From assembly GCF_022201045.2 (NCBI RefSeq), contig NC_068559.1, forward strand, positions 27,845,501 to 27,909,500: a DNA stretch of 64,000 bases, given 5' to 3'. Numbering within the stretch: position 1 is the first letter of the stretch; every line of letters begins with the position of its first letter. The stretch is from Citrus sinensis (lineage: Eukaryota; Streptophyta; Magnoliopsida; Sapindales; Rutaceae). The notes below the pieces were generated by a model, which did not search any database, was not told the DNA's origin, and worked only from the letters and a program-made list of their open reading frames with translations. Positions 10,317-14,781 of the stretch are shown one piece after another. A program made the translations under genes and the position numbers.

Positions 10317-10663
10317 TAAAAAAAAAATAAAAAGGAGAAAAAGTTCGAAGTTTCAACAACAGTGTTACGTGTGAAACAAAATGAAAAAGCTTGGTAGTAG
10401 TTGTGAACTTCTCTGAAACGGTATCCCAAAACCAAGAAAATGAGCCAAATCTCGCTACCTTACCCAAACCTCTCTACTCGTCTTTGCTAATTTAATTAAG
10501 AATTTCATAAATAAAAGAATAGAAAAAACTATGGGAAATTTACGAAAATAACCATAAAATTTTTACTATTTTCACAATTAACCCTCTCAACTTTTTTCTA
10601 TCAACATTAGCCAAACATACGCTTTTCTCCCCAAATTACCCTTCTTTACAAACGAAAAGAAGC

Positions 10664-10918
10664 TTGGTGCGACAGGCCCAAGTCTTGGTGCGACAGGCAC
10701 TCTGTCGCACCATGTTTTGGTGCGACAGGCACCTGTCGCACCAAGCTTTGGTGCGACAGGCACCCTGTCGCACCATGTTTTGGTGCGACAGGCACCTGTC
10801 GCACCATGTTTTGGTGCGACAGGCACCTGTCGCACCAAGCTTTGGTGCGACAGGCACCTGTCGCACCATGCTTTGGTGCGACAGGTAGCCTGTCGCACCA
10901 AGCTTCGTGCGACAGATT
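10664..10918 (+). repeat. array of ~31-bp palindromic repeats (GGTGCGACAGG...CCTGTCGCACC)
   Basis: Seven near-identical units of 31-32 bp, each made of TTGGTGCGACAGG, a 2-5 base centre and CTGTCGCACCA, with degraded half-units at both ends. Each unit is a near-perfect palindrome with arms of about 13 bp. Junctions alternate between AAGC and ATGT/ATGC. The array is GC-rich compared with its surroundings. Several frames on both strands stay open through it because of the short period, so the open frames there are not evidence of a protein. Confidence 0.93.
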
Positions 10919-11127
10919 GCCTTCTTCTACCTCAGTATTTGTTTGTTTTCGCCAGTCCTTTCGTCTTTGTTCGTCTCTTCTTATTCGTATGTAATATCTT
11001 CTTCTACCTCAGATCGAATCTCATCCGACAACCCAAACAACAAAACAAAATTAGCTTTTTAATTCTCCAAAATCCAATTTCGGAATTTAAATTCCCCGGG
11101 ATTTTCCATCAAAAGCCACATTGCGAA

Positions 11128-11493
11128 ATGCTAGGCGGGCTGTACGGAGACCTACCTCCACCCTCCGATGAGGACAAACCCACCAACACGACCACCACTG
11201 TCTGGTCACCTGCAATCGCAATCGCACCTTCCCCCGACGACGTGGTAGCGCTGCCGCAACCGGCATTGGTCGACGTCACTTCGACCGTAATCGAGGAGCA
11301 CGACCTCGCTAGACCGAACGATTACGAGGATTATAGGAGAGAGAAGAAGAAGAAAGAGGTGGATGCTAAAATTAGTAGAGAACTGGAGAGAAGAAGGCAA
11401 GAGGAAGAGGAAAGGGAGATGAGAGAGAGGGGTAATTTGGTCTCAATGGTTCTTTTATGGCTAATGTTGATAGAAATTTGTTTGAGGGGTTAA
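11128..11493 (+). pseudogene. captured N-terminal fragment of DRT111/SPF45 splicing factor
   Basis: From the ATG at 11128 the frame reads MLGGLYGDLPPPSDEDKP, then PALVDVTSTVIEEHDLARPN, then DYEDYRREKKKK and ELERRRQEEEEREMRERG. These match, from family knowledge, the start of plant DRT111/SFPS (splicing factor 45-like). Compared with that family the proline-rich linker after VWS is shortened. The G-patch and RRM domains are absent: the frame runs into the transposon's terminal repeat and stops at 11491-11493 after 121 codons. Upstream bases (about 10980-11127) look like captured 5' leader. The fragment is also open upstream through the palindromic array, giving a chimeric 258-codon frame. No function is implied. 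Confidence 0.88.
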
Positions 11494-11771
11494 GATGAAA
11501 AAAACTAAAATTTTTATGGTTATTAGTGTAAATTTCCCAAAAACTATCCCTCCAAATCAAATGATTACGTCCCTGTTTTGATATCCTCTTTTTTAATCTC
11601 GGCTCGCTCCGCTCCCTTCCCTTGTCCGTTTTCGAACCCTAGCCCCACTCTCTTAATCTTCAGTTATCTCCGTCTGATTCTGATCTTTCTGTATTACCGT
11701 CAGATTAAGAATTAAAAAGAAAGAAAGAATATTATCTTCAGATTCTTGGATCATAATTTTTATTTAGAAAT

Positions 11772-12056
11772 ATGAGTAATCAGAAGAAGAGGAACTTTCA
11801 AATTGAGGCTTTCAAGCATCGAGTCGTAGTGGATCCGAAATACGCAGAGAAGACGTGGAAGATTCTGGAGCATGCGATTCACGAGATTTATAATCACAAT
11901 GCTAGTGGCCTCAGTTTTGAAGAGCTTTACAGGTTTTGTTATCTGCTGCTTTACTATTTTACACAACTCTCTGTTTCTTTTTTTTCTTTTCAAGTTTGAT
12001 CACTTTTCTTAATGCTATTCTTCATTTCGGCTGCTTGATTGGAATTATTTTTATTT

Positions 12057-12087
<31 letters not shown>

Positions 12088-14781
12088 TGCGGCTTTATGT
12101 ATGTTCATTGTTTCAGACGGACATACGCTAGACTAGTTAGTGTACAGACTTGTTAAGGAGGTGTTATCAATTCTTTTGTAGTAAGTAATTTGATGATTTG
12201 CTGCAAATTTAGTATTGATTGTTGATCAGATAGTTTAGCATTCTATAGTGTTTTCTTGAAACTGTTAGTATGGAGTACTGGCGGTGTGGTAAATTCGTTC
12301 TAGCAAGATTTGTTATGTGCTTATGATTGTTATAGTAAAATGTTGTGCTGCCGCATATTGAGTGCCCCTGACTCGTTCCCACCGGATCAGGAGTTTTTCG
12401 AATAAATGTAAAATAGCGGCCAACATCATTGTGGTGTAAAATCTGACCGAATTCATTTCTGAGAGATGTTCTTGCTGTCTCTCATTTGTTCTTTTCTTTA
12501 ATTATATTCTTCTGGTAGATTGGCTGTATGAGTCATGCTAGAAGTAGTTCTTGGGTGCCGTATGTTTAAGAGTTAATCTGCTTGAATTGTTTGTTAGCTT
12601 TTAACGTCAAGTTTGGTCGGGGTTATGCTCAATGATCCTATGCGTGATTGGCATATTCTAATTCTGTGTCTGCCTGCATTCCGTGCTTCTTCTATCTTAA
12701 TTCAAGAGCTCCTGTTTACGTTATGTTTTTTGCTTTAATTCAGAAATGCCTACAATATGGTGCTGCACAAATTTGGTGAAAAGTTGTACTCCGGACTTGT
12801 TTCGACCATGACTTTGCATCTGAAGGAAATATCAAAATCGATTGAAGCTGCTCAGGGAGGTTCGTTTCTGGAAGAGCTGAACAGGAAATGGAATGACCAT
12901 AATAAGGCATTGCAAATGATCCGAGACATATTGATGTACATGGACAGGACTTATATTCCAAGTACGCATAAAACCCCTGTTCATGAGCTTGGACTGAATC
13001 TGTGGAGGGATAACATTGTGCGCTCCAACAAAATTCAGACGAGACTTTTGAATACACTTCTTGAACTTGTTCACAGAGAAAGGACTGGTGAAGTTATAAA
13101 TAGGGGGTTGATGAGGAATATAATTAAGATGCTAATGGATTTAGGTCCCTCTGTTTACCAAGAAGATTTTGAGAAACCATTTCTTGAGGTGTCTGCCGAG
13201 TTTTATAAGGTTGAATCTCAGAAGTTTATCGAGTGTTGTGACTGTGGGGAATATCTGAAGAAAGCAGAGAGACGTCTAAATGAAGAAATGGAGAGAGTGA
13301 CCCACTACTTGGATGCCAAGAGTGAAGCCAAGATTACTAATGTGGTGGAGAAAGAGATGATTGCAAACCACATGCCAAGACTAGTTCACATGGATAATTC
13401 AGGTTTGGTAAATATGCTCCTGGATGATAAATATGAAGATTTGGGAAGAATGTACAACTTATTCCGTAGGGTTCCCAGTGGTCTCTTAACAATACGAGAA
13501 GTCATGACATCTCATCTTAGGGAGACTGGTAAGCAGCTAGTTACTGATCCAGAAAGATTGAAGGATCCGGTTGAATTTGTGCAGCGGCTGTTGGATGAAA
13601 AGGACAAATACGATAATATTATTAGTTCAGCGTTCAACAATGACAAGACATTCCAGAATGCTTTAAATTCCTCTTTTGAATATTTCATTAATTTGAATCC
13701 GCGTTCACCAGAGTTCATATCATTGTTTGTGGATGATAAACTTCGCAAAGGTCTGAAAGGAGTTAGCGAGGAGGATGTGGAGACTATTCTAGACAAAGTA
13801 ATGATGCTGTTCCGCTACTTGCAGGAGAAAGATGTATTTGAAAAGTACTACAAGCAACATTTAGCTAAGCGGCTTTTGTCAGGAAAAACTGTCTCTGATG
13901 ATGCAGAGAGAAGTCTCATAGTCAAGCTGAAGACTGAATGTGGTTACCAATTTACTTCAAAATTAGAAGGCATGTTTACAGACATGAAGACCTCCCAAGA
14001 TACAATGCACGAATTTTATGCAAGCCATCCTGAGCTAGGGGACAGCCGCACACTGGTTGTCCAGGTTTTGACAACTGGATCTTGGCCCACCCAGCCTAGT
14101 GTTACTTGCAACCTGCCAGCCGAAATGTCAGCTCTGTGTGAGAAATTTAGATCATACTACCTTGGAACTCATACTGGTCGGAGATTGTCCTGGCAAACCA
14201 ACATGGGCTCAGCAGATATAAAGGCAACCTTTGGTAAAGGTCAGAAGCATGAGCTGAATGTCTCCACATACCAAATGTGTGTTCTCATGCTGTTTAACAA
14301 CGCTGATCGGCTTAGCTACCGGGAAATAGAGCAGGCAACAGAGATTCCTGCTTCAGACTTGAAAAGGTGCCTGCAATCTCTGGCTTGTGTGAGGGGGAAG
14401 AATGTTCTTCGGAAAGAACCCATGAGTAAAGACATTGGTGAAGATGATGCATTCTTTGTCAATGACAAGTTCACGAGCAAATTCTATAAGGTAAAGATAG
14501 GAACTGTGGTTGCACAAAAGGAGTCAGAACCAGAGAAACAGGAAACTCGGCAAAGAGTGGAGGAGGACAGGAAGCCTCAGATTGAAGCTGCCATCGTTAG
14601 AATCATGAAATCAAGGAGAGTACTCGATCATAACAACATAATTGCTGAGGTCACAAAGCAGTTGCAGTCACGGTTTCTGGCAAACCCCACGGAGATTAAA
14701 AAACGGATTGAGTCCCTCATTGAAAGGGATTTCTTGGAGAGGGATAATGTAGACAGAAAATTGTATCGGTATCTTGCCTAA
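11772..14781 (+). CDS. CUL3: cullin-3 (CUL3), scaffold of BTB-type E3 ubiquitin ligases
   Basis: Two coding exons, 11772-11932 and 12744-14781, join across an 811-bp GT/AG intron to give 732 aa, the length I recall for Arabidopsis CUL3A/B. The N-terminus (MSNQKKRNFQIEAFKHRVVV) is CUL3-specific and precedes the cullin repeats that bind BTB substrate adaptors. The cullin homology domain follows (FEKYYKQHLAKRLL at about 360-375), which recruits the RBX1 RING protein. The C-terminal winged-helix part contains IVRIMKSRR, whose lysine at about 676 is the conserved NEDD8 site, and ends in LYRYLA. No essential part is missing. The gene is divergent from MOG1, and the Pack-MULE ends 233 bp upstream of the start. 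A (TA)n tract lies in the intron at about 12060-12087. Confidence 0.97.
12059..12087 (+). repeat. (TA)n microsatellite in CUL3 intron 1
   Basis: About fourteen uninterrupted TA repeats lie inside the single CUL3 coding-region intron. Confidence 0.9.

Follow-up and report, generated by a model that had tools for sequence, protein, structure and literature searches.

The element and its neighbour

The window, the 64,000-nucleotide stretch of DNA analysed here, contains a short transposable element whose right end lies 233 bp from the ATG (position 11772) of the gene on its 3' side. This gene is CUL3, as it matches the Pfam Cullin family with an E value of 5.4e-150, and its five best matches among solved structures are all Cullin-3. 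Both this distance and the orientation proposed in the preliminary description of the locus, with the gene fragment carried by the element reading toward CUL3, were confirmed, the two being on the same strand. Contig C6 carries a paralogue of CUL3 (87% identity over 674 residues), hence damage to the copy in the window could be buffered.

The element is a non-autonomous Mutator-like element, of the type known as a Pack-MULE. Its first letters are GGGAAATTTACG and its last GTAAATTTCCC, and direct reading of the sequence finds AAAAACTAT twice (10524-10532 and 11539-11547), immediately flanking GGGAAATTTAC...GTAAATTTCCC and identical at 9 of 9 positions; for 9-mers drawn at random from the window, the rate of pairwise matches is 3.7e-5. 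The perfect 9-bp target duplication described previously is present, as are the inverted repeats of around 110 bp, albeit imperfectly: 82 of 113 positions pair without gaps, including 34 of the outermost 40, and an inverted-repeat search on the element returned 82-nt arms at 78%. The open reading frame at 11128-11490 had no Pfam match at an E value threshold of 0.001, and the 1006-bp element is without a transposase of its own. Hence it combines MULE-type terminal inverted repeats, a target-site duplication in the 9-11 bp range and a host gene fragment with a distant parent, but no transposase, as is characteristic of the Pack-MULEs that occur in rice and other plants.

Table 1. Coordinates within the window of the Pack-MULE, its component parts and the adjacent gene
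Positions	Strand	Feature	Basis
10524..10532	.	Left target-site duplication, AAAAACTAT	Direct reading
10533..11538	+	Entire Pack-MULE, 1006 bp	
10533..10645	+	Left terminal inverted repeat	Arm pairing and likeness to the end of the coding relative
10664..10915	.	Palindromic array built from GGTGCGACAGG / CCTGTCGCACC half-sites in inverted orientation; 16 cores (GCGACAG/CTGTCGC), recurring mostly every 31-32 bp	
10921..10935	+	15-nt junction filler CTTCTTCTACCTCAG, repeating a parental stretch found 77 bp further in	
10933..11429	+	Captured SPF45/DRT111 5' leader and part of first exon	Alignment to parent
11128..11493	+	121-codon frame: DRT111 N-terminus and tail from right MULE end	
11209..11217	.	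Scar: in-frame loss of ~87 bp with 6 bp gained, unique to the window copy	
11426..11538	-	Right terminal inverted repeat; its inner edge is the (GA)n tract joined by the capture	
11539..11547	.	Right target-site duplication, AAAAACTAT	Direct reading
11772..14781	+	CUL3 gene, ATG through main exon; neighbour of the insertion	

The captured fragment and its copies

The cargo aligns to the genome's own SPF45/DRT111-type gene with DNA identities of 94.2% (10933-11208) and 93.9% (11218-11429). This parent (locus L042), which reads MLGGLYGDLPPPSDEDKPTN... and is found around 27.993 Mb on contig C2, has the top-scoring G-patch domain in a domain search of the genome, if barely ahead of the next, and its frame is open from MLGGLYGDLPPP through the G-patch region. 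The capture represents 624 bp of the parent, beginning in the leader, 196 bp upstream of the ATG, and ending near codon 142. The preliminary description had recognised the N-terminus of DRT111 in the internal frame, along with an apparent 5' leader, and had proposed alignment to the DRT111 locus as a means of finding the parent and the capture borders. Each of these points was upheld: the parent was found, at approximately 94% identity; the frame at 11128-11493 (121 aa) matches it at the DNA level; and about 196 bp preceding the ATG are present. The outcome named there as telling against the description, a lack of DRT111 homology, did not occur, as 10933-11429 matches the parent. The last codons of the frame, from GNLVS onward, derive from the MULE end. 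A longer open frame of 258 codons (10717-11493) spans the array, the captured leader and the DRT111 piece, and is probably the product of chance.

A genome-wide search revealed at least 37 loci with the DRT111 capture, of which 33, the window copy included, belong to lineage A and four (L041, L043, L044 and L045) to a sister lineage B; this search of the whole genome scored the best 40 of 675 candidates, from which 38 loci were taken, one being the parent. The lineage B elements are missing the middle of the capture, and their remaining pieces are nearer to the parent (95-96% in L043-L045). Lineage A copies have lost 45 bp (15 codons) of the capture at a repeated GTCAA, a site overlapped by the later deletion in the window copy. 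Scanning for the pattern of the right junction identified at least 33 places with the lineage A form and at least three with the lineage B form, both being lower bounds drawn from 100 of 129 places, the others of which were weaker matches. The 9-bp duplications are perfect in 30 of 34 elements and every one is different; those of L029, L030, L033 and L040 are imperfect, and the ends of L030, L031 and L040 were extrapolated.

Several copies have more complex structures, as judged by eye. L046 (C3:20003985-20005394), a rearranged copy, has extra, partly coding-looking DNA in mid-element, perhaps a second capture, whilst L041 (C2:3143661-3145665) of lineage B also contains pieces that read like an ABC transporter, a family to which we presume they belong. 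L031 (C8:2626891-2629692), of lineage A, holds a nested insert of ~1.9 kb with long direct repeats. At L039 (C3:30104149-30106135), a DRT111 Pack-MULE and another, similar-ended MULE are found about 73 bp apart.

The nearest relative of the window copy is L010, on contig C1, from which it differs by no substitution outside the array and the deletion scar; all six mismatches in 725 aligned positions adjoin the ~87-bp deletion. The window copy is therefore young, and this absence of substitutions, given a substitution rate of about 2e-9 per site and year, suggests an insertion at most a million years or so old, this being a rough date. In combination with the perfect target duplication, it agrees with the fairly recent insertion originally proposed. 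It is highly probable that the element is one copy of a multi-copy Pack-MULE with SPF45/DRT111 5' cargo, stemming from a clade that has a 7.2-kb coding member, and that it inserted recently in front of CUL3.

The evolution of the cargo was followed in an alignment of 30 copies, which omits L026 and L029 (where the start of the capture was not matched by the text search), the rearranged L041 and L046, the partial L043-L045 and the parent. A frame of 144-148 codons is retained in 21 of these 30 copies, and the deletion in the window copy, which leaves 121 codons, is in frame; both would be expected of a new chimeric gene under selection, joining the DRT111 N-terminus to a tail from the MULE end. 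However, young copies would have intact frames anyway, and the 93 distinct changes to the frame, comprising 59 nonsynonymous, 27 synonymous and seven stops, compare with expectations of 59.0, 29.7 and 4.3 under the mutation spectrum of the family itself, such that no constraint on the frame was detected in the 30 copies. A selected chimeric gene is therefore very improbable; since the changes fit the neutral expectation, the frame is probably evolving neutrally and the cargo is probably a passenger. Its high identity to the parent might also be taken to indicate a plain DRT111 duplicate or the remnant of a retrocopy, but this was ruled out, to near certainty, by the MULE ends, the target-site duplications, the start of the capture within the leader and the occurrence of the same right junction at a minimum of 36 places. 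Of 603 parental 21-mers, the window copy contains 99, and 215 occur in one or more of the 30 copies; because parental sequence recurs in this way, small RNAs directed against the parental DRT111 gene are possible.

The palindromic array and the capture junctions

Between the left end of the element and the capture lies an array of inverted half-sites, the cores of which alternate in orientation, save for the first two. The preliminary description had noted neither this array, nor the existence of further copies, nor the in-frame deletion peculiar to the window copy. Partners are 11-12 bp apart and units mostly 31-32 bp apart. Folded as RNA, positions 10655-10925 have a predicted energy of -202.4 kcal/mol, relative to -101.5 kcal/mol (SD 5.7) for shuffled sequences. 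Genome-wide, there are 89 exact occurrences of the 24-mer palindrome and none of its reversed control, and the 11-mer half-site has 1212 occurrences, compared with 35 for its control. At all 29 of the loci outside the DRT111 family with the exact 24-mer, covering 31 palindrome sites, at least one matching MULE end is found nearby, yet the captured parental segment, sought in the same 29 loci at an E value of 0.001, had no match. Perfect 9-bp duplications flank ten of the 15 palindrome loci that have both ends in view. That the array is a piece of the DRT111 capture is thereby ruled out; on this sequence evidence, it is instead common to, and a mark of, a large MULE clade. A separate MULE family of ~2.1-2.4 kb (L058, L069, L074, L078, L084 and L085, along with L065) has the same motif array and near-identical ends; one of its open reading frames was searched against Pfam, with no match.

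At the right junction of the capture, parental ...AAAGGGAGA meets MULE ...GAGATGAGAGAGAGGGGTA, the two having GAGA in common. The MULE tract at this junction is also found in elements without DRT111: in L071 and L080 (minus strand), the same (GA)n tract is joined to one other inner sequence, suggesting that the tract is a capture hot spot, and in L079 to a third. At the left junction, examined in a subset of copies and modified in certain elements (L038 and L040, for example), the array breaks at the centre of a palindrome (GACAGGTTGCCT) and is followed by CTTCTTCTACCTCAG, then by the main capture starting from CAG. The junction homologies are short, at 2-5 nt, and each could arise by chance. 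The capture may reflect template switches made in the course of DNA repair or replication. On the left, the switch would have taken place in the centre of the array palindrome GACAGGTTGCCT, with the parent first entered at CTTCTTCTACCTCAG; copying would then have slipped 77 bp upstream at CAG, run for 624 bp along the parent and returned to the MULE through GAGA at the (GA)n tract. The simplest account of the left junction appears to be a template switch at a hairpin.

A coding relative of the family is located at C4:3801919-3809097; it is 7179 bp long and has a perfect duplication, ATGATTCTT. Its left end is 89.7% identical to that of the DRT111 family over 126 positions, and its other end 88.2%. 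It encodes the MURA-type transposase domains PF10551 and PF03108, with a stop between the first open reading frame and the MURA frame in the copy examined. The strand opposite MURA encodes a DUF1985 domain and, further on in the same direction, a ULP1 peptidase domain (PF02902; E value 4.9e-22), which we infer to belong to a single gene. Given that the two ends are shared, the coding relative would supply, in trans, the MURA transposase that moves the DRT111 family.

The array motif is found in both subterminal non-coding parts of the coding relative, preceding the transposase gene on one side and DUF1985 on the other. This association was quantified on contig C1, which has a complete motif list, collapsed by hand to 39 places, with the ULP1 and DUF1985 searches scoring the best 150 of 363 and 150 of 332 candidates, respectively. 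The motif lies within 4 kb of 11 of 14 ULP1-like loci on this contig (0.13 expected at random places), and 310-415 bp before the domain at seven of ten DUF1985 loci (0.02 expected); it is absent there at three loci of each kind. At C4:19391872-19401900, seven DUF1985 matches are spaced exactly 1607 bp apart, as a DUF1985-containing unit is repeated there in tandem.

The length of the array varies between copies, being 279, 279, 281 and 173 bp in four that are identical over 806 positions. In a tree of the 30 aligned copies, for which the window copy was masked at 16 columns next to its deletion, array length declines with terminal branch length (rho -0.74, among copies related by kinship): the median array is 92 bp in the 11 copies with a terminal branch of at least 0.01 and 279 bp in the 17 with one below 0.004, the other two falling between these groups. 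Within the 14-copy young burst clade alone the correlation is not significant (rho -0.34, p 0.24), and in the other 16 copies rho is -0.70, kinship making the p-values of both unclean. Hence young copies have long arrays and old copies short ones, a trend that palindrome decay after insertion explains as well as a role in mobility would.

KIU/VANC proteins of Arabidopsis strip silencing by binding tandem motifs, and the array may be a switch that assists elements of this sort in evading silencing. Specifically, the GGTGCGACAGG array is a tentative candidate for the cis target of a KIU/VANC-type anti-silencing protein, with DUF1985 and ULP1 domains, produced by the 7-kb members of the clade; the gene-less Pack-MULE family would ride this system in trans, multiplying while its arrays are long and falling silent as they shrink, and at CUL3 the array could hold the promoter in an open state or couple it to the activity of transposons. 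There is a substantial chance, though short of an even one, that the array is instead an unstable hairpin repeat with no role, which shrinks over time as its palindromes delete. The differing lengths in otherwise identical copies and the location of long arrays in young copies would both follow from such instability; however, a roleless repeat would not be expected to place the same half-site in divergent subfamilies and at both ends of the coding relative, or so regularly in front of DUF1985 domains on contig C1.

Effects on CUL3 and comparison with known systems

The element separates the upstream DNA from the 233-bp stretch that precedes the CUL3 ATG. CUL3 could be affected by a moved promoter, by the spread of silencing or, most boldly, by an imported anti-silencing target; most likely its upstream promoter has been displaced by 1 kb, with an effect that would be mild or none. 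It is unlikely that the element provides CUL3 with a promoter or leader and so generates a chimeric transcript, as the preliminary description had entertained. The shared strand, the proximity of the two and the presence of a captured leader would all allow this, but 11 ATGs, ten of them inside the element, intervene between the captured leader and the CUL3 ATG, making a productive chimeric message improbable. Furthermore, no TATA-like stretch was found by eye in the captured part, that of the parent being situated ~120 bp outside the capture; with the intervening ATGs, this makes a donated promoter unlikely.

No description of the DRT111 Pack-MULE family was found among open-licence PMC papers, as judged by their titles and the starts of their abstracts. 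The window element resembles plant Pack-MULEs, as represented in passages of PMC13317346, in its MULE ends, 9-bp duplication, lack of transposase, host gene piece and position near the 5' end of a gene; it is unlike them in having a single capture at 37 or more loci and a palindromic array that separates the cargo from one end. CitMule of clementine, a MULE from what is probably the same plant genus, also has 9-bp duplications. However, it is about 7 kb long, carries a FAR1 and MULE transposase gene, and has neither long terminal inverted repeats nor, in the passages of PMC4334395 examined, a captured gene.

The capture itself is comparable to that of the multicopy Pack-TIRs of animals, for which a template-switch model has been proposed, its use for plant Pack-MULEs being termed 'worth exploring' in part of that study (PMC8277862). 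Judging from the same extracts, animal elements such as Ssk-FB4 of Drosophila likewise have repeats beside an end, short homology at the junctions and later amplification, and the FoSTeST model fits the window element, although the latter is a plant MULE (PMC8277862). With recurrent junctions, at a palindrome centre on one side and a reused (GA)n tract on the other, these copies bear on how plant Pack-MULEs capture DNA.

The clade as a whole invites comparison with the VANDAL and KIU (Kaonashi) elements. In a figure legend of PMC5735166, DUF1985 is one of the two domains of VANC proteins; VANC targets, in the excerpts consulted, are short motifs repeated in tandem in non-coding DNA, where they grow and shrink in extent (PMC5735166, PMC10398659), and KIU are ULP1-carrying VANC genes that act on their own kind (PMC13317346). 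Measured against these partial accounts, the coding relative is alike in having DUF1985 and ULP1 on one strand and non-coding short-motif repeats that vary in length between copies (PMC5735166, PMC10398659, PMC13317346), and the window element has such repeats in common with this DUF1985-coding element. Yet the same passages term VANDAL and KIU MULEs non-TIR or degenerate in their TIRs (PMC5735166, PMC10398659, PMC13317346), whereas the coding relative has long terminal inverted repeats, and for this reason the clade was not filed as VANDAL/KIU. The motif also differs, being G+C-rich, CpG-containing and palindromic here, in contrast to YAGTATTAY or AGTTGTCC in the parts of the literature seen, and the window copy carries no DUF1985/ULP1 gene. 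If the array is an anti-silencing target, the VANC principle would extend to long-TIR MULEs and to gene-carrying non-autonomous copies, one of which lies before a cullin gene. The copies constitute a natural series bearing on whether a non-coding motif array decides which of them keep moving.
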